DNA of 64,000 bases from Xylanimonas ulmi. GTDB taxonomy: Bacteria; Actinomycetota; Actinomycetes; Actinomycetales; Cellulomonadaceae. The position numbers and the translations under genes are program-made. The notes under the pieces were generated by a model. The model was given only the letters and a program-made list of their open reading frames with translations, did not search any database and was not told where the DNA came from. Below are positions 45,368 through 54,373 of this stretch, one piece after another (the stretch's first letter is position 1; the number at the start of each line of letters is the position of its first letter). Where the stretch lies: assembly GCF_004216535.1 (NCBI RefSeq), contig NZ_SGWX01000001.1:2852001-2916000 (forward strand). The letters run 5' to 3'.

Positions 45368-45416
45368 CAGAACCCTCCGCCCACCGGGGTTGTCCCACGG
45401 TGGGCGGAGGGTTCTG
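45368..45416. terminator. Bidirectional terminator between STAS gene and fba
   Basis: A perfect 19-bp inverted repeat (45368-45386 with 45398-45416, 11-nt loop) lies between two convergent genes, 43 nt after the STAS stop and 48 nt after the fba stop. It can serve both. Confidence 0.9.
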
Positions 45417-46486: not shown

Positions 46487-46758
46487 CGTTGATACTCCAA
46501 GCAGATGTGGGGGATGTTCCTTGGGCATCCTCCCACGCCTGTGGCCTGACCGTCATGCGGGCGGTCGCGCGCACGCGGTGCGACGGCGCGGACGGCACCA
46601 GTCGGCGGGCCATGACAACGCGCGCGACAGGAGTCACCACGGCTTTGCTGGTCTGGCTCACGAATCCAGCCCGCGCCTGCCTTCAAGACCTGCGAACGCC
46701 CGCGGACTCACGCTCTCGCGCGACACCCCCGGACCGAGGCGCGCCAAACAAGGGACAA

Positions 46759-46787
46759 TATCCGGTTCTCTGGATACTCTCGTCTTG
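46759..46787 (+). promoter_or_regulatory. Candidate yhfZ promoter and operator, leaderless start
   Basis: GATACT (46773-46778), a -10-like hexamer, ends 8 nt before the GTG at 46787, and no Shine-Dalgarno site precedes that codon. An inverted repeat tatcc-8-ggata (46759-46776) overlaps the hexamer and could be the YhfZ operator for autoregulation. In the rest of the 300-nt fba-yhfZ interval (46487-46786) I see nothing else convincing. It must also hold the fba promoter. Confidence 0.5.
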
Positions 46788-47701
46788 TGCCGTTGACGGG
46801 GATGTTGATGTCTCGAGCGGGCCTCGCGGCCGCCCGGCTCGCTGACGCGCTCAGTGGACTTAACACGGGAGACCGCGTCCCGCGGGTCCAGGACCTGGCA
46901 GGGCAGTTCGGCTGCGGCAGGGGCACTGTGCAAGCGGCGTTCGGACTGCTCGAAAACGCGGGCGCACTGCGACTCGTCGCACGCGGCCACCTAGGCACGT
47001 TCGTTGACGCGATCGACCACCGAGTGCTGTGGCAACTGTCGGGCGATCGCTCCGTCTCGCTCGCCATGCCCTTGCCCTACACCCCTCGGTACGAGGGGCT
47101 TGCGACCGGGCTGGCCGCAGGGTTCGAGGCCACGGGCGTCCCGCTCACGCTGGCGTTTATGCGCGGCTCGGCAGCCCGCCTCCGGTCTCTGCGCGAGGGG
47201 CGGTCGGACTACGTGCTGCTCTCGTCACTCGCCATGTCGACAGAGGAGGACCTGGAGGTCGTGCGCGACTTCGGGGACGGCAGCTACGTCGCGTCCCACG
47301 TCACGGTGCTCGCCGAGGGCAAGCAGGTCACCGACCCTGACTTGCGGATCGCCGTCGACCGTTCGTCGGCCGACGTGGTTACCCTCGTGCGCCGCGTGTT
47401 CGGCGACGTGCCGGCCGATCGTCTCGTGGACGTCTCCTACAACCACCTCGACCACGGGTTCCGCGCGAAGACCATCGACGCAACGGTGTGGAACGCCGAT
47501 GAGATCCGCCGCCACATCTCGGCCCCGATCACCACCCTGCCGCTCCCCGCGGCACTCGACTCGTCAGACACACGCGCTGTCATAGTCCGGGTCCGATCCG
47601 ACGTCTCGGTGCCCGTCGCCGTGCTCGACGCGTTCACGAACCCAGTTGTCGTCCAACTCGCTCACGACGTCGTCGCGGGCAACGCCATCCCGTCCTACTG
47701 A
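46787..47701 (+). CDS. yhfZ: YhfZ-like HTH transcriptional regulator
   Basis: A 304-residue regulator; E. coli YhfZ has 301. The N-terminal GntR-like winged helix is RVPRVQDLAGQFGCGRGTVQAAFGLLENAGAL. The rest resembles a periplasmic-binding-protein-like effector domain (SLAMPLPYTPRYEGLATGLAAGF; SDYVLLSSLAM), which binds a small molecule in related proteins. It leads an eight-gene operon and most likely controls it in response to the pathway substrate. The start (GTG 46787) rests on the -10 box position; ATG 46802 and ATG 46808 are alternatives. Confidence 0.88.
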   Translation: MPLTGMLMSRAGLAAARLADALSGLNTGDRVPRVQDLAGQFGCGRGTVQAAFGLLENAGALRLVARGHLGTFVDAIDHRVLWQLSGDRSVSLAMPLPYTPRYEGLATGLAAGFEATGVPLTLAFMRGSAARLRSLREGRSDYVLLSSLAMSTEEDLEVVRDFGDGSYVASHVTVLAEGKQVTDPDLRIAVDRSSADVVTLVRRVFGDVPADRLVDVSYNHLDHGFRAKTIDATVWNADEIRRHISAPITTLPLPAALDSSDTRAVIVRVRSDVSVPVAVLDAFTNPVVVQLAHDVVAGNAIPSY

Positions 47702-47713
47702 AGGAGCACCGCT

Positions 47714-48094
47714 ATGAACCACGAGCTTCGTCAGCGCCTCGACGCCTTCCGGGCGACAGACTCCATCCCCTCGCGGGCTGTCGACTTCGTCGAACGCGAA
47801 CTCGCCATGATCGACCCGCAGGCGACGCTCGACGACGAGCAAGCCGGCCTGTTCGTCTCACACGCGGTGATGGCGGTGACACGCCTAGCCCAGGGCGACG
47901 ACACCGTGACCGCGCCCGACGAGAACGTCTACGCCGAGGTGGTCTCAAAAGACCCTTCGACGCCGATCACGGCCCAACGCATGGCCGATCGCGTGGCCGA
48001 GGAGTTCCGACGACCTCTGCCGGACGCGGAGGTCAAGTTCCTGACCATTCACATCGCCCTGCTGAACCACCACCTGACAAGGGAGTCGTCATGA
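47714..48094 (+). CDS. yhfY: YhfY-like PRD-domain protein
   Basis: A 126-residue protein; E. coli YhfY has 120. It is a single PTS-regulation-domain (PRD) helical bundle with conserved His in LFVSHAVMAVTRLAQGD and FLTIHIALLNHHL. PRDs in antiterminators and activators are phosphorylated on His by HPr or EIIB. Here no PTS gene or DNA/RNA-binding domain is attached, so it may tune another yhf protein. The ATG at 47714 has an AAGGAG site 12 nt after yhfZ. The stop overlaps yhfU (ATGA). Confidence 0.85.
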   Translation: MNHELRQRLDAFRATDSIPSRAVDFVERELAMIDPQATLDDEQAGLFVSHAVMAVTRLAQGDDTVTAPDENVYAEVVSKDPSTPITAQRMADRVAEEFRRPLPDAEVKFLTIHIALLNHHLTRESS

Positions 48095-48450
48095 GAATCA
48101 TCGCCGGAGGCGTGGGCAAGGCGCAGGTCGCTGACGCCCTCAGGTCAATGCTCCGCCCACACGACACCATCACCGTCAGCAGCGACATGGACGCGGCGCT
48201 TAAGCTGCGCACCGGCGACGCCGACTACTACCTCGGCACGTGTCACACCGGCGCGGGCGCCAGCCTCGGCGTCCTCGTTGGACTCCTCGGCGCCGACAAA
48301 TGCCACACCTTCGGCCGCGCCGCACTCACCGCAGAGGACATCGAGGCCCAACTCTCCGCAGGCAAGGTCGCCTTCGGGTTCTCGGTGGACCAGATCGACG
48401 ACGCCGTCCCGGCCCTGTGGGCGGCCCTCCTCAAGGAAGAGAAGGTCTGA
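48091..48450 (+). CDS. yhfU: YhfU-like DUF2620 protein
   Basis: A 119-residue protein; E. coli YhfU has 117. It has a glycine-rich opening MRIIAGGVGKAQVADAL and a central DADYYLGTCHTGAGASLGVLVGLLG segment, both typical of DUF2620. The fold resembles a PTS EIIB-like or nucleotide-loop alpha/beta domain, with a Cys and His close together, but function is unknown. ATG 48091 overlaps yhfY by 4 nt. The stop overlaps yhfT by 1 nt (TGATG), implying equal synthesis with the transporter, possibly as its cytoplasmic partner. Confidence 0.88.
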   Translation: MRIIAGGVGKAQVADALRSMLRPHDTITVSSDMDAALKLRTGDADYYLGTCHTGAGASLGVLVGLLGADKCHTFGRAALTAEDIEAQLSAGKVAFGFSVDQIDDAVPALWAALLKEEKV

Positions 48451-49847
48451 TGTTCGCACTACTCGCTGCCGCCAACGAAGCCAGCGGCGTGCACTTCGCC
48501 ACCTGGCAGTCCATCACCGTCATGATCGTCACTGCCGTCGCAGCCGTCATGGCCCACAAGGCCCTGGCCGTGTTCAACGACGGCGCGCGCCCCTTCATGC
48601 TCGACTTCATCGGCGGCAAGACCACCCGCCCCGCAACCGCGACCGTCGTGTTCGGCCTATCGGCCGGGTTCATTTTCGGCTTCGGCGCCCCTCTCGCGCT
48701 GTCGACCGGAGTGCTCAACCCGTGGCTGCTCTTCCTGCCCGCCGAGATCCTCGGTCTCGTCGCTCCGACGTGGTGGCTCGCCGCCGCCGCGGGTCTGGGC
48801 TGGGGAGCGATCTCCGCGTGGGGTCTGTCATCGATCAACAACCTCTCCGCAAACCTTCCGGTCGACTTCATCTCGGCCCTCGGCGAGCTCGGGACTCCGA
48901 TCCTGTGGCTGTTCGCGATCTTCCCGGCGCTAGCGGTGGCGCGTCAGTTCGGCCGCACCAAGGGCCTGATCACGTTCGGCGTCCAGATCGCCGCGACGGT
49001 CGCCACCATGAAGCTCTGGCCGAACATCTTCGCCGCCTCCATTGCCATGGCCGCGGGCGTGGTCATGCTCGTCGCATTCGCTGTCACGAAGGACCGCAGC
49101 GAACGCAGCGCCGAGGCCGTCGCCCTCGCGAGCATGAGCGACGCAGAGCGAGCCGCCCATGCTGGGAATAAGGCCGTTGCCGCTGCGGCCGTCGACCAAC
49201 TCTTCGGCCCGAACGCCGCCCGCCTACGCAAGTACCTGCCGTGGTTTGCCGTGCTCGGCGCAGCGGTGGCCGTCCTTTCCGCCACCGGGATCTTCGCCGG
49301 CGGCGAGGCGACCTCGTTCCTTGTCGCAGATCGCCAGTTCGTCGAGGCCGCGCAAGTCGACTTCTGGCGTGCGTTCGGGTTCATCCCGTTGATCGCAACG
49401 ACGGCGTTGGCCTCCGGCGCGTACGCCATGGCCGGTCTGACGTTCGTCTACCCGGTCGGATACTTGATCGGTCACTTCATCGGCAACCCCGCGTTGGCCC
49501 TAGTCGTGGCAGCGATCGCAGGTGCGCTGGTGTTCAGCGTCGAGGTCTTCGCCCTCTCCGGCCTTGGCAAGTGGATGCAGCGCTGGCCGTCGATTCGAGA
49601 GTCGGCGGACCACATACGAAACGCCATCAACGAGGCCCTCCAAGCGGCGATCCTCGTCGGCTCGCTCATGGTTGCCCTGTCGATGGGTGGCGGCCTAGGG
49701 GCGCTGCTCGTCGGTGGACTGTACCTACTCAACGAGGCGCTCGGCCGCCCAGTCATCCGTATGGCCGCCGGCCCCGCCGCAATCCTTGTCTCCGGCGTGT
49801 TGCTCAACCTCCTGCACTGGGTGGGTCTGTTCACCCCGGTCGCGTAA
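48450..49847 (+). CDS. yhfT: YhfT-like membrane transporter
   Basis: A 465-residue integral membrane protein with about eleven hydrophobic helices; E. coli YhfT has 434. Conserved-looking loops include AVFNDGARPFMLDFIGGKTTR after the first helix and LSSINNLSANLPVDFISALGELGTPILW in the middle. It is the only membrane protein of the operon and so the presumed importer of its substrate. The family is not assigned a substrate that I know. The ATG at 48450 overlaps the yhfU stop by 1 nt; longer upstream frames lie over yhfU. A charged cytoplasmic loop (KDRSERSAEAVALASMSDAERAAHAG) divides the two halves. Confidence 0.9.
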   Translation: MFALLAAANEASGVHFATWQSITVMIVTAVAAVMAHKALAVFNDGARPFMLDFIGGKTTRPATATVVFGLSAGFIFGFGAPLALSTGVLNPWLLFLPAEILGLVAPTWWLAAAAGLGWGAISAWGLSSINNLSANLPVDFISALGELGTPILWLFAIFPALAVARQFGRTKGLITFGVQIAATVATMKLWPNIFAASIAMAAGVVMLVAFAVTKDRSERSAEAVALASMSDAERAAHAGNKAVAAAAVDQLFGPNAARLRKYLPWFAVLGAAVAVLSATGIFAGGEATSFLVADRQFVEAAQVDFWRAFGFIPLIATTALASGAYAMAGLTFVYPVGYLIGHFIGNPALALVVAAIAGALVFSVEVFALSGLGKWMQRWPSIRESADHIRNAINEALQAAILVGSLMVALSMGGGLGALLVGGLYLLNEALGRPVIRMAAGPAAILVSGVLLNLLHWVGLFTPVA

Positions 49848-49867
49848 GCGGCAGGAGGCTCACGACC

Positions 49868-50836
49868 ATGATCCAGTCCGTCCTTGGCCCGATCGACCCC
49901 CACAGCGTGCGCGGGGCCGTACTGCCGCACGAGCACCTCGCGATCGACCTGAGAGTCGAGTTCGACAGCGAGGCTGTACTCAGCGACGACGACACCCCCG
50001 CCGTCGCCACTGAACTCGCCGACGCCTCGGCCCGGTTCGGCCTCGCACTCGTCATCGACCAGACCGCGCGAGGCATGGGTCGCGACATCGCCGCGTTGCG
50101 GCGGATTGCGACGACGTCGGGAGTACCCGTGGTCGCCAGCACCGGGTGGTACTACGAGCGGTTCCACCCGGCCGCCGAGCCGGGCGATGACGTCGGACGC
50201 GCGACGGCACTGCTGATCAGCGACCTGACCGAGGGAGTCGACGGAACGGATGTCCTCGCCGGTGTCATCGGCGAGATCGGCACGCACGGGCAGACCCCGA
50301 GCGCGCCCGAGAGGGTGAGCCTCCTGGCAGCCGGTCGCGCGGCGGCGGCCACGGCGCGACCGGTCTCGACCCATGCCCACCTGGGCACGGGTGCCCGAGC
50401 CCAGCTTGACTTGCTCGCATCGACGGGTGTCGACCTGAGCCGGGTCAGCATCGGCCACCAAGACCTGACGACAGACGCCGCCCAACATGCCGCGATCGCC
50501 GACGCGGGGGCGTACATCGCATTCGACACAATCGGAAAAGAGTCCTACCAGCCCGACGACGTCCGCCTGCGCCTGGTGCTCGACCTCCTCGAGCAGGGCC
50601 GAGAGCGAAACCTGCTGCTCAGCAACGACATCTCTCGACGCAGTTACCTCCGCGTCGCAGGCGGCAAGGGATACTCCCACACCCTGGGCAGGTTCGCCGC
50701 ACGGCTGCGCGCCGCTGGCATCGATAAGCACACCCTTGATCAACTCTTCCGACGCAACGCGTTGCGCTGGCTCACCGGAGTAGACGTCGACGGCGCCGCG
50801 GCGCCAATCCCCTCCCCCTGCGAGGAGGCCCTGTGA
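49868..50836 (+). CDS. php: Php/YhfV-like phosphotriesterase-family hydrolase
   Basis: A 322-residue amidohydrolase-superfamily protein (PTE family; E. coli Php has 292). Metal ligands visible: HEH in AVLPHEHLAID, the bridging Glu in GEIGTHGQ, His in STHAHLGT and IGHQDL, and Asp in LLSNDISRRSYL. Characterised relatives are lactonases and phosphotriesterases. In this operon it could open a lactone or cleave an ester/phosphoramidate of the imported compound (inference). The ATG at 49868 has a GGAGG site; the longer in-phase frame overlaps yhfT. The stop overlaps yhfS. Confidence 0.9.
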   Translation: MIQSVLGPIDPHSVRGAVLPHEHLAIDLRVEFDSEAVLSDDDTPAVATELADASARFGLALVIDQTARGMGRDIAALRRIATTSGVPVVASTGWYYERFHPAAEPGDDVGRATALLISDLTEGVDGTDVLAGVIGEIGTHGQTPSAPERVSLLAAGRAAAATARPVSTHAHLGTGARAQLDLLASTGVDLSRVSIGHQDLTTDAAQHAAIADAGAYIAFDTIGKESYQPDDVRLRLVLDLLEQGRERNLLLSNDISRRSYLRVAGGKGYSHTLGRFAARLRAAGIDKHTLDQLFRRNALRWLTGVDVDGAAAPIPSPCEEAL

Positions 50837-51948
50837 TGACCTTAGTCCGCCCCACTCTCCCGGTGACAACCCCCCTGCCGCACCTCGACGCCGAGGGCGC
50901 GTTTGCCCTCCAACAGCGCATTGTCGCCGCCATTTGCGACGAACTGCCTGGCGACGAACTGTTCCGCGCAGACGTCGGCGTCAAGCTCGGCTTAGGACGC
51001 CCCCACACGACGGCGCGCGTCGAGCGGGTCCTCGCGCGCACGTTCGACGCCGAGGACGCCTGTCTGGTGCAGGGAGCCGGGACCGGCGCGATCCGCGCCG
51101 CGTTGTCCGCTGGTCCCTGGCGCGACGGCCAGCGCCGTTTGCTCGCGCACGACGCCCCGGACTACTCGACAACAGCGACGACCTTCCGCGATGGCCTCGT
51201 TGAGGCGGTGCGGGTCGACCTCAACGACCCCGAGGCGGTGGACGCAGCCTTGAAGGCCCCTGACTCGCCCGCCTGGGTATACATCCAGCACACCCGGCAG
51301 CGTCTTGCGGACAGCTTCGACCCGATCGCCGTCGTCGAACGAGCCCATGCGCTCGGCAAGCGCGTGATCGTCGACGAGAACTACGCGGCTGTCCGCACAC
51401 CACGGCTCGGGGTGCAGGTAGGCGCAGCAGCGTCGACCTTTTCCTTGTTCAAGTTGCACGGTCCCGAGGGAGTGGGCGTCGTCGTCGGGGACGCCGACCT
51501 ATGCGACGCCGCTCACGCCGCCAATTACTCTGGCGGCGGGCAGGTCCAAGGCCCGCAGGCCGTCGCCGCGCTCCAGTCCCTCGTCTCGGCACCCCTGAAT
51601 TGGGCGCGGCAGTCGAAGGAGGTCCACCGGCTCGCCAGACTGCTCCGCGACGGCGCCGTGCACGGGATCGCCGACGCCGTCGTCGCGAACGTCCAGGACC
51701 TGTGTGTCGTGGCGCTGCTCGACACGCCAGTCGCGGACGACGTGCGCGCGCGGGCCTCCCGGTACGGCGCTGCGCCCTACCCTGTGGGGTCCAACTCGCG
51801 GTATGAGATCGCACCCATGATCTATCGCCTCTCGTCGTCGACCCTCGACGCACAGCCCGAACTGCGCGAATGGACCCTGCGGATCAACCCGATGCGCGCT
51901 GGTGCCGACCTCACGGCTGACATCTTGAGCCGCGCACTGCGAGGCTGA
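50836..51948 (+). CDS. yhfS: YhfS-like PLP-dependent aminotransferase-fold enzyme
   Basis: A 370-residue fold-type I PLP enzyme; E. coli YhfS has 361. The PLP Lys is in TFSLFKLHGPEGVGVVVG (about residue 203), preceded by VIVDENYAAVR (pyridine-contacting Asp). Related enzymes act on C-S or C-C bonds of amino acids (Met gamma-lyase/threonine aldolase groups) or transaminate. Two TTA leucine codons (50842 and 50992), very rare in such genomes, suggest transfer and possible bldA-type translational control. ATG 50836 overlaps the php stop by 1 nt; GTG 50833 is equally possible. Confidence 0.88.
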   Translation: MTLVRPTLPVTTPLPHLDAEGAFALQQRIVAAICDELPGDELFRADVGVKLGLGRPHTTARVERVLARTFDAEDACLVQGAGTGAIRAALSAGPWRDGQRRLLAHDAPDYSTTATTFRDGLVEAVRVDLNDPEAVDAALKAPDSPAWVYIQHTRQRLADSFDPIAVVERAHALGKRVIVDENYAAVRTPRLGVQVGAAASTFSLFKLHGPEGVGVVVGDADLCDAAHAANYSGGGQVQGPQAVAALQSLVSAPLNWARQSKEVHRLARLLRDGAVHGIADAVVANVQDLCVVALLDTPVADDVRARASRYGAAPYPVGSNSRYEIAPMIYRLSSSTLDAQPELREWTLRINPMRAGADLTADILSRALRG

Positions 51949-51953
51949 GCGTC

Positions 51954-53120
51954 GTGTTCCTCGACACCACACTGCGCCGCAATCCCCACCTCATCGAGGC
52001 CGCGCAGGCACTGCACGCCGACGGCCTGATTGAACCCGACACATACGTGATCGACGTCGACACCGTGTCCGCCAATGCCCGCGCACTTGCGGCGACCGCC
52101 ACTGCACACGGACTCGTTCCCTGGGCTGTCATCAAGCAGATTGGCCGCAACCCACTCGTCACCCGGGCGATCACCCAGCATCTCCCGCTTGGCACGGCTA
52201 TCGACGTGCGCGAGGCACGGGCGCTGCTCGCCGGCGGCGCGCACCTTGGAAACGTCGGGCACCTCGTCCAGATCCCACGCAAGGCGCTGCCTGAGATCCT
52301 CGCCGCAGGCGCAGACCATGTCACGGTGTACGACGTCTCAAACCTCCGAGCGGTCGACGCCGCAGCCCGCAGCCTGGGCATCGTCCAGCCGATCATCGCT
52401 CGCATCGCCGGACATGCCTCCGATTCCTACCCTGGGCAGGAGGGCGGGTTCGCGCCCTGCGACATGGCCCGTCTCCTTGAGACCACCGAGAGCCTCGCGC
52501 ACACCCGACTGGTTGGCGTCACAGGTTTCCCCTGCGTCGTGTTCGACCCCGCCCTCGGCAGGCCGCGCGTCACTGCCACGCTTGACGCAGTGCTGCGCGC
52601 CGCAGAGGTGATCCGCGGCGCCGGAGTCGAACCCGTCATCAGTCTGCCCAGCCATTCGAGTTGCTCGACCGTCCCGCTGGTCGCGGCGGCGGGCGGCACA
52701 CACATCGAACCCGGTCATGCGCTGACGGGGTCGACACCCGAGCACGCCGTGCGTGACGACCTCCTTGAGCGGCCCGCGATGGTCTATGTGTCGGAGGTCG
52801 GGCAGGAGTCGCCGCGACCCCAGGTCATCGGCGGTGGCTTCTACGCCCGCGGTGGCGCTCGCAACGCACTGCTCGGGAGCGCCGACTCCGCGCGGCGGAT
52901 CGCCCTGCTGCCCGATCCCCCGGAGAACATCGACTACTACCGTCGCCTGGACCCCTCTTCTGCTGACGTCTCTCCGCGTTTGGGCGAGACGGCCGTCATG
53001 GCGTTCCGGACGCAGATCTTCGTGACCAGGTCGCACGTCGCCGTCGTCTCTGGCATCGCCGCGGGCTCACCCCATGTCGACGGAGTCTTCACCGCCCTGG
53101 GCGAGGTGGTCGCGGCATGA
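51954..53120 (+). CDS. yhfX: YhfX-like PLP protein (alanine racemase N-terminal fold)
   Basis: A 388-residue fold-type III PLP enzyme; E. coli YhfX has 387. The TIM-barrel opens with DTYVIDVDTVSANARAL. The PLP Lys61 is in PWAVIKQIGRNP. The barrel ends with IEPGHALTGSTP and the C-terminal beta domain with VIGGGFYARGG. Such enzymes racemise, dehydrate or decarboxylate amino acids. With YhfS it gives the operon two PLP enzymes of unrelated folds, pointing to an amino-acid-like substrate. GTG 51954 follows yhfS after 5 nt; the stop overlaps yhfW (ATGA). Confidence 0.9.
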   Translation: MFLDTTLRRNPHLIEAAQALHADGLIEPDTYVIDVDTVSANARALAATATAHGLVPWAVIKQIGRNPLVTRAITQHLPLGTAIDVREARALLAGGAHLGNVGHLVQIPRKALPEILAAGADHVTVYDVSNLRAVDAAARSLGIVQPIIARIAGHASDSYPGQEGGFAPCDMARLLETTESLAHTRLVGVTGFPCVVFDPALGRPRVTATLDAVLRAAEVIRGAGVEPVISLPSHSSCSTVPLVAAAGGTHIEPGHALTGSTPEHAVRDDLLERPAMVYVSEVGQESPRPQVIGGGFYARGGARNALLGSADSARRIALLPDPPENIDYYRRLDPSSADVSPRLGETAVMAFRTQIFVTRSHVAVVSGIAAGSPHVDGVFTALGEVVAA

Positions 53121-54373
53121 CGGCCACGATCCTGGTGCTCGACGGCTTCGGGGTCGGTGCCATGCCCGACGCGGGCGAGATCCGGTCTGCCGACTCCCGC
53201 GCGGACACGTTTGGCTCGCTGTCCCTCTGGGCGGGCGCGCGCGACCGGTCCGCGCTGCGGGTACCCCACCTCGCTGCGCTTGGCCTCGCGACGCTGCGCC
53301 CCGACCTCGGGCTGGGGTCTGCGGCGCTGACACTCCCGCGTGTCGCGCGGCGCGCCGCGCTCGGCTACCCCGGAGCCGATACGTTCGCCGGACACCAGAC
53401 GATGATGGGGGCCGACATGTCCCACGTCGTACTGCGGCGTCTCGAGGAGAGCCTCGACGAGGTGCGCGCGGCGCTCCACGCCGCCGGGCATCGCACCGCG
53501 TTGCTCGACGGCGGACCCGTCATCGTCGTCGACGACGAACTGCTGGTCCATGACAACTTGGAGGCGGACCCAGGCCTGATCTGGAACGTCTCGGCTCGAC
53601 TCGACTACATGCCCTGGGAGTCGATCCTTCACGTCGCCTCCGCGGTGCGCTCGGTCGCTCCCGTGGCGCGCGTCATCGCCGTCGGCGGCTACTCGTCAGA
53701 GCCGCTGCCCGCGGCCGTCCGCCCCGGCGCCTTCGGCGTCGTCGGCCTGGACACACCTGCTTCTGGCTTCTATCGCAATGGCGGCCTGCGGGTGCAGCAC
53801 TTCGGCGCGGACATAGACCACCGCCATCAACTCCCTGAGGTCACCGCCCGCGCGGGTCTGCCGGTCACCCTCATCGGCAAAGCTGCGGACATCCTCGCGA
53901 CGGATGCAGACGTCGTGCGCCTCCCCGGGGTCTCGACCGAGAGAGTCCTCGCAGACGCGGTGCGCGCGGCTCACAGCGGCGGCCTCGTCGTCGCCAACGT
54001 CCAGCAGACCGACCTGGCAGGACACCAGCAGGACCCGGCCCGGTTCATCGAACTCCTTGAACAGGTTGACGCGACTATCCCCAACCTGCTCGACGCCCTG
54101 GGGCCAGGTGACCTTCTTGTCGTCGTCGCGGACCACGGCAACGACCCACTCATCGGGCACGCTCATCACACGCGCGAGTACGTCCCGGTGCTGGCCGCCA
54201 GCGGCGGCCGACATCGGGCCGACTGCGCGAACGGTGCGATGCGCGGGGTCGATCTGGAGTCGCTCGCCGACGTCGGCGCGTCGGTCGCTGCTCACCTCGG
54301 CCTCGACCCGAATGATCTCGCACACGGCTCCCCAACCGACCTTCTCGCGCTCGGCGGGGCGACTCATCGGTGA
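53117..54373 (+). CDS. yhfW: YhfW-like phosphopentomutase-family protein
   Basis: A 418-residue alkaline-phosphatase-superfamily mutase; E. coli YhfW has 408. Binuclear metal ligands: Asp9 in LVLDGFG, Asp/His in VVADHGNDP and TDLAGHQQD, and His in HHTREYVPVL. The nucleophilic Thr is expected in GADTFAGHQTMMG. True phosphopentomutase (DeoB) interconverts ribose-1- and 5-phosphates, so this enzyme probably moves a phosphate on a sugar or sugar-like intermediate. Final gene of the operon, coupled to yhfX by a 4-nt overlap and followed by a strong hairpin at 54459. Confidence 0.9.
   Translation: MTATILVLDGFGVGAMPDAGEIRSADSRADTFGSLSLWAGARDRSALRVPHLAALGLATLRPDLGLGSAALTLPRVARRAALGYPGADTFAGHQTMMGADMSHVVLRRLEESLDEVRAALHAAGHRTALLDGGPVIVVDDELLVHDNLEADPGLIWNVSARLDYMPWESILHVASAVRSVAPVARVIAVGGYSSEPLPAAVRPGAFGVVGLDTPASGFYRNGGLRVQHFGADIDHRHQLPEVTARAGLPVTLIGKAADILATDADVVRLPGVSTERVLADAVRAAHSGGLVVANVQQTDLAGHQQDPARFIELLEQVDATIPNLLDALGPGDLLVVVADHGNDPLIGHAHHTREYVPVLAASGGRHRADCANGAMRGVDLESLADVGASVAAHLGLDPNDLAHGSPTDLLALGGATHR

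Follow-up and report, generated by a model that had tools for sequence, protein, structure and literature searches.

In this study, we closely examined an eight-gene cluster in the genome of the actinobacterium Xylanimonas ulmi whose genes correspond to the yhf genes of Escherichia coli. The cluster is located at positions 46787 to 54373 of a 64,000-nucleotide (nt) stretch of contig NZ_SGWX01000001.1 (positions 2,852,001 to 2,916,000; here named the window). An earlier inspection of the sequence without database searches (here named the original prediction) had proposed that eight yhf-type genes form one tight operon, and profile searches bear this out. All eight open reading frames (ORFs) were found on the plus strand, with gaps of 5 to 20 nt or overlaps of 1 to 4 nt, and each protein scored above the curated cut-off of a Pfam or NCBIfam profile of its family. 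We regard an operon with the YhfZ, YhfY, YhfU, YhfT, Php, YhfS, YhfX, and YhfW families as virtually certain. Since families, gene order, and co-occurrence were confirmed, the locus is a known, uncharacterized operon; new are a predicted operator before yhfZ and partners of YhfX outside yhf operons.

The first gene, yhfZ (46787 to 47701; start candidates GTG 46787, ATG 46802, and ATG 46808), encodes a GntR-like helix-turn-helix protein with a YhfZ C-terminal (effector) domain. It exceeds the cut-offs of PF14503, PF14502, and NF041241 (263.1 bits for the last, with a curated cut-off of 260; the YhfZ_C profile is among those passed) and has 2ozz as a solved relative. It is followed by yhfY (47714 to 48094), which encodes a single PRD domain (PF00874, 28.1 bits; cut-off, 23), and by yhfU (48091 to 48450), encoding a DUF2620 protein above the cut-off of that profile, with the motif C51-x-T-G-x-G and a predicted RpiB/LacAB-like fold. 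The product of yhfT (48450 to 49847; PF10797, 444 bits) is a polytopic membrane protein with hydrophobic segments and a presumed transporter, while php (49868 to 50836) encodes a phosphotriesterase-family metallohydrolase (PF02126) with E. coli Php (4lef/1bf6) as its best solved relative. Php also matched the narrower E. coli-type Php model NF007373, below its cut-off (197.9 versus 486 bits). Two enzymes dependent on pyridoxal 5'-phosphate (PLP) follow, namely, a fold-type I enzyme encoded by yhfS (50833 to 51948; PF22475 [YhfS-like_C]; solved relative, 4j8l) and an alanine-racemase-fold enzyme encoded by yhfX (51954 to 53120; PF21279 [YhfX-like_C] and PF01168; solved relative, 4kbx). The last gene, yhfW (53117 to 54373), encodes a phosphopentomutase-like member of the alkaline phosphatase superfamily (NF009049, 368 bits; cut-off, 254). 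A check for riboswitches gave no Rfam match that reached the gathering score between positions 45400 and 55400.

As in the window, all eight families are encoded compactly on one strand in E. coli K-12 (yhfZYXW-php-yhfUTS), which differs in gene order and with identities ranging from 16% (YhfY) to 43.5% (YhfS). The one-for-one match to E. coli stated in the original prediction thus holds for the families, but only roughly for the lengths (php, 322 versus 292 amino acids; YhfT, 465 versus 434 amino acids).

Gene order and distribution of the yhf operon

A scan of 84,980 species, with one genome per species, yielded 252 YhfT loci, of which the best 80 were retained; all 80 are actinobacterial. 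Exactly the order of the window, Z-Y-U-T-php-S-X-W, is shown by 50 of these 80 loci. The other 30 deviate through contig ends, genes that were not found, split pieces, or an extra yhfT copy, and the pieces of one locus at a contig end (L031) are partly inverted; no alternative gene order was found among the 80 loci. For yhfY, 12 of these 30 loci gave no tblastn match, and a PRD-like ORF is present in 11 of these 12. The extra yhfT copy (L046:7741-9036) lies between yhfZ and yhfY and is diverged, with 50% identity to YhfT of the window. Among the genes flanking the loci, no cluster spanned three genus groups.

The order of the window is also found on a plasmid of Cetobacterium somerae (NZ_CP092520), where an additional gene with an amidase annotation separates yhfT from php. 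On a plasmid of Vibrio halioticoli (L006), the order is Z-Y-php-U-T-X-W; directly upstream (L006:5064-9139) lie genes for a lactose/cellobiose-type phosphotransferase system (PTS; IIB-IIC-IIA), for a DUF7916 protein, and for a porin. The original prediction had argued from retention of all genes despite reordering that they serve one pathway. This argument is less strong than it was put: the difference from E. coli is real, but the order of the window is the actinobacterial norm, shared by the fusobacterial plasmid, and the reordered operons are those of E. coli and of the Vibrio plasmid. A single pathway is nevertheless well supported, since the families, their co-occurrence, and the gene order all agree with it.

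Co-occurrence was analyzed in 246 Streptomyces genomes by genome-wide searches for four of the eight families, which gave matches over the cut-off for YhfT in 30, YhfU in 30, YhfS in 29, and YhfX in 30 genomes. All four were found together in 29 of the 31 genomes that have any of them. The two exceptions are G658, which has yhfT and yhfU adjoining yhfY and php and lacks yhfS and yhfX, and G515, which has YhfX only; a further genome (G555) gave one YhfT match below the cut-off. Membership of several proteins in other families, or independent occurrence of the genes, would have spoken against the original prediction; the profiles and the joint occurrence of the four searched families in 29/31 genomes show neither.

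Of 396 genomes from the phylum, 2 have YhfT, one of them being the genome of the window. Among 59 relatives, the sole genome with YhfT is again that of the window, and ten further genomes of its genus, including four that are less than 80% complete, gave no match. Viral contigs gave four pattern matches, with no YhfT relative among them. In a tree of five joined proteins, the window groups with Jiangella, Aeromicrobium, and another member of the Nocardioidaceae (support, 99), with Boudabousia adjoining (100). The tree comprises 35 of the 75 loci having all five proteins and was built by a quick method with the Shimodaira-Hasegawa-like approximate likelihood ratio test (SH-aLRT) as its only support measure, and several branches, including that of the window, are long. 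This placement together with the patchy presence suggests that the operon was gained horizontally.

Predicted operator and promoter upstream of yhfZ

Immediately upstream of yhfZ, the loci share a 24-bp imperfect palindrome of approximately CAATATCCaGaATtCTGgaTAcTG. In the window, the probable YhfZ operator is CAATATCCGGTTCTCTGGATACTC (46756 to 46779, plus strand; TATCC-N8-GGATA), with a position weight matrix (PWM) score of 20.3. Column counts over 73 loci point to a promoter of the form TTGnCA, 17 bp, TAcTnT, and within the -10 element, 73/73 loci agree in the initial T, the A, and the final T. In the window, the putative -35 element is GGGACA (46752 to 46757) and the putative -10 element, at a distance of 17 bp, is TACTCT (46775 to 46780), both on the plus strand. 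According to this column pattern, the predicted operator reaches from the edge of one promoter box across the spacer to the edge of the other, and a leaderless transcript is probable.

A site scoring at least 18 precedes yhfZ in 74 of 82 scanned loci. Since the PWM was built from these upstream sites themselves, their count alone is no evidence; informative are the positions of second sites, on which the matrix was not trained, and the absence of sites elsewhere. A second site occurs in 48 loci. In 47 it falls in the interval from yhfZ to the next operon gene that was found, and in L046 it separates the extra yhfT from yhfY; no site scoring at least 18 was found elsewhere in the 82 loci. The upstream site is the top-scoring one of its locus in 67/73 cases, and some second sites outscore the first. 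In the 64-kb window, the operator is the sole place scoring at least 10, and in the 3.97-Mb genome it is the only match with up to two mismatches; since the search pattern was derived from the motif, it is the absence of other matches that informs. The eight loci without any site also lack a yhfZ match in the stretch examined. Three of them start at yhfU, one (L025) has neither a yhfZ nor a yhfY match, and four (L073, L077, L083, and L086) form one clade, so the joint loss of yhfZ and operator amounts to few events. No clear operator precedes yhfZ in E. coli (score, 8.2), the Vibrio plasmid (0.2), or the Cetobacterium plasmid (-0.9). From the conserved palindrome, we infer that YhfZ binds the predicted operator, and YhfZ is quite probably a local regulator acting at positions 46756 to 46779.

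Conserved residues of the enzymes and features of YhfU and YhfT

Residues were counted among the homologs, excluding fragments shorter than 75% of the respective window protein. In Php, H21, H23, E136, H169, H197, and D254 are kept in 79/79 sequences; by analogy with the phosphotriesterase family, we take these six residues to be binuclear metal ligands. Likewise, K207 and D181 of YhfS are kept in 80/80 and K61 and Y297 of YhfX in 79/79 sequences. YhfW keeps D299, H303, D339, H340, and H351 in 72/72 sequences, and its position 89 is threonine in 64 and serine in 8. T89 aligns with the first threonine of DTMTGH in the phosphopentomutase 3m8w, and we assume from DeoB that it is the phospho-acceptor and that the other residues are of the metal-ligand type. 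YhfW differs from DeoB in that it aligns only partially to solved phosphopentomutases and does not reach the cut-offs of the DeoB models, passing NF009049 instead. With their catalytic-type residues conserved, the yhf proteins look like working enzymes. In YhfY, H50 is kept in 76/76 and H113 in 73/76 sequences, which presumably are the PRD regulatory histidines.

It is highly probable that YhfU has an RpiB/LacAB-like fold, a feature missed by the original prediction, as were the operator and the recurrent partners of YhfX described below. Its C-x-T-G-x-G loop is present in 84/84 sequences and aligns onto the loop of RpiB, where it has a catalytic role. YhfU differs from RpiB/LacAB isomerases in being shorter and below the Pfam cut-off: among three YhfU proteins searched with LacAB_rpiB, only that of E. 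coli matched, with 13.6 bits versus a cut-off of 24.7, and the best sequence match in the PDB (2ppw, RpiB-like) had an E value of 0.62. For YhfT, the profile revealed no solved relative by sequence (single match, E = 1.5). The two halves of YhfT show a weak internal repeat (hhalign E = 0.0015; probability, 16.6%; no unrelated membrane protein served as control).

One idea is that YhfT and YhfU represent a new type of transporter for glycated amino acids or amino-sugar conjugates, an unrecognized route under the control of a stand-alone PRD protein. In such a system, a two-repeat membrane protein would act with a soluble partner of the RpiB fold, which would handle a sugar phosphate through its conserved cysteine. 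We consider this quite unlikely; if true, it would add a third way of uptake for these compounds beside ABC (ATP-binding cassette)/APC permeases and the classical PTS. Two further candidates were examined. For YhfT and YhfU as PTS EIIC and EIIB, no PTS family was found in the Pfam matches, most matches above E = 0.1 having been filtered. A possible parallel to Gly_rich_SFCGS/DUF4311 operons gained no support and stays a lead: PF14272 exceeded its cut-off in 0/296 actinobacteria, with two sub-threshold matches, the match of Cetobacterium YhfU to it was sub-threshold as well (E = 0.09), and nothing relevant appeared in the literature among the matches listed.

Genomic context of YhfX and possible function of the operon

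With E. coli YhfX as the query, we obtained 20 plasmid records, of which 5 bear yhf operons; 9 of the other 15 were examined. Together with L129, from the Streptomyces genome having YhfX only, they make ten YhfX loci outside yhf operons. In seven of eight alphaproteobacterial loci, genes for a ROK regulator, an M20 deacylase, one or two sugar-binding proteins, a permease, YhfX, and an ATPase were found. The eighth, L131 (Sinorhizobium fredii NGR234), retains only a partial permease, YhfX, and the ATPase. A SIS gene then follows in L127 and L131. In L133 (Rhizobium sp. RCAM05350), the ROK regulator, the deacylase, one binding protein, YhfX, and the ATPase match in several frame pieces, and in L131 an Amidohydro_3 ORF (L131:5862-7502, 225.6 bits) lies upstream of YhfX on the opposite strand. 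In L129 and in L128 (Embleya), YhfX is accompanied by an APC amino acid permease, two ROK proteins (one a regulator, the other a kinase), and a SIS gene.

SIS genes were also sought with four queries in 85 loci (E up to 1e-8). Four Aeromicrobium yhf loci carry one 21 to 24 bp downstream of yhfW, and in Streptomyces ardesiacus one adjoins yhfZ divergently; L009 is among these five loci, and no further ones were found in the 80 yhf loci or the window. The best NCBIfam models for the SIS proteins of L012, L061, and L127 are NagB-II and GlmS, with scores below the cut-offs. In E. coli, the frl (fructoselysine) operon adjoins the yhf operon, with yhfS (L004:1269-2291) convergent to frl and frlB 2.65 kb from the yhf operon. 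FrlB is a distant SIS relative (19 to 22% identity) of the SIS proteins encoded near yhf or yhfX elsewhere. The frl logic of an amino-acid-type permease (FrlA is presumably APC-type), a kinase, and a SIS enzyme is matched by L128 and L129; it differs from the window operon, which has no SIS or kinase gene, and the frl genes include no PLP enzymes. Given the recurring amide-cleaving or deacylating enzymes, importers, and SIS proteins, the alanine-racemase fold of YhfX, and the RpiB- and phosphopentomutase-like proteins of yhf, the simplest common theme of these contexts would be a compound with an amino-acid part and a sugar(-phosphate) part.

The sequences show the expected families, the conserved catalytic-type residues, the near-perfect co-occurrence, and the predicted operator in the promoter. 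We tentatively propose a locally controlled catabolic operon for uptake and breakdown of a small molecule in which an amino acid (or amino group) is linked to a sugar, either an Amadori (fructosamine-like) compound or one of the N-acyl-amino-sugar class; an Amadori compound in particular is unlikely. YhfZ would keep the yhfZ promoter blocked, and contact of its effector domain with the substrate or an intermediate would lift the block, and YhfY, a PRD protein with conserved histidines in a genome having HPr, may couple expression or transport to the state of the PTS. YhfT would import the compound, Php would open an ester, lactone, or amide, YhfX would invert the alpha-carbon of the amino-acid part, and YhfS would perform a PLP-dependent elimination or deamination. 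The RpiB-like YhfU and the phosphopentomutase-like YhfW would process the sugar-phosphate part, and in some relatives a SIS enzyme of the NagB-II/GlmS/FrlB type might carry out a cleavage. The individual steps and their sequence are guesses. The amino-acid-like or amino-sugar-like compound and the phosphate transfer on a sugar-like intermediate suggested by the original prediction fit the context evidence, so that its overall reading is partly supported.

Several observations weigh against this proposal. Neither the eight genes nor the two that flank them include a SIS or kinase family, as frl-type operons do, and the four SIS queries had no match in the window; an Amadori scheme would therefore need another cleaving or phosphorylating step, and the neighborhood of frl in E. 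coli may be a coincidence. SIS genes occur in a minority of the YhfX loci outside yhf (4/10, within the stretches examined) and in only 5/80 yhf loci, and the SIS protein of L061, only 33 to 38% identical to those of Aeromicrobium, may be encoded by a chance neighbor. The amidase-like protein of the Cetobacterium plasmid stays below the Pfam cut-off (21.3 versus 27). YhfU has a gap in place of the N-terminal Asp-His pair, which is functional in RpiB, in a profile alignment that is itself weak. Furthermore, yhfS was not detectable in the operon of the Vibrio plasmid, and in the Streptomyces clade L073, L077, L083, and L086, which keeps U-T-php-S-X, yhfW, yhfZ, and the operator were not found within the locus stretches examined; the eight genes are thus not all required everywhere. 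Finally, among the 73 sites upstream of yhfZ, the operator of the window has the lowest score (20.3 versus a median of 43.4), and its GGGACA is the sole exception to the first T of the -35 element, present in 72/73 loci.

Some of the same context evidence would also suit a catabolic route for D-amino acids or for amino acids carrying an N-acyl group, e.g., derived from peptidoglycan, with YhfT importing, Php deacylating, YhfX racemizing, and YhfS eliminating, and YhfU and YhfW drifted to non-sugar roles. This would account for the alanine-racemase fold of YhfX with conserved K61 and Y297, the ArgE/DapE-type M20 deacylase adjoining YhfX in alphaproteobacteria, the APC permease adjoining it in two actinobacteria, the amidohydrolase-family ORF near it in L131, and the Cetobacterium gene annotated as amidase. 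However, the neighbors of YhfX repeatedly include ABC importers of the sugar type as well as ROK proteins and SIS genes, and YhfW and YhfU retain the phosphotransfer residues and the RpiB loop, which leaves this explanation a limited chance, similar to that of an Amadori compound.

Another explanation starts from those two proteins, both from pentose-phosphate families: the operon would degrade or detoxify a nucleoside-like compound that carries an amino-acid side chain. YhfW would move the phosphate of a pentose-1-phosphate to the 5-position, YhfU would isomerize the product, and the PLP enzymes would take the amino-acid part. The context favors amino sugars instead, and no gene for a nucleoside phosphorylase or hydrolase was found in the window operon or among the annotated E. 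coli and Cetobacterium operon genes, making this option somewhat less probable still. The least likely of these explanations is a biosynthesis or export operon, in which the enzymes would make an aminated sugar-like product for export by YhfT. No transporter relative of YhfT was recognized by sequence, so the direction of transport is not fixed, but the single local operator with an effector-domain regulator, the patchy distribution, and the PRD protein better suit inducible catabolism. For the proposed uptake and breakdown of an amino-acid/sugar compound, the operator, the YhfU fold, and the independent YhfX contexts turn an open question into specific assays, asking which ligand releases YhfZ and which amino sugar or glycated amino acid is acted on by YhfX and the SIS enzyme.

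Of 5426 complete E. coli genomes, 5014 contain the yhf operon over at least 80% of its length. Among the matches listed in a search of the open-access literature, no paper on the function of the operon was found. In an excerpt of PMC3423039, yhfW is a candidate for gap filling, though a weak one (E = 0.47); an excerpt of PMC5293155 describes a yhfW mutant that was dropped over inconsistent replicates. In an excerpt of PMC7513527, DUF2620, PRD, membrane, and YhfX proteins with near-consecutive accessions and a phosphotriesterase-family protein are among the markers of a Lactobacillus rhamnosus clade; based on this list, a Firmicute version of the yhf operon probably exists.

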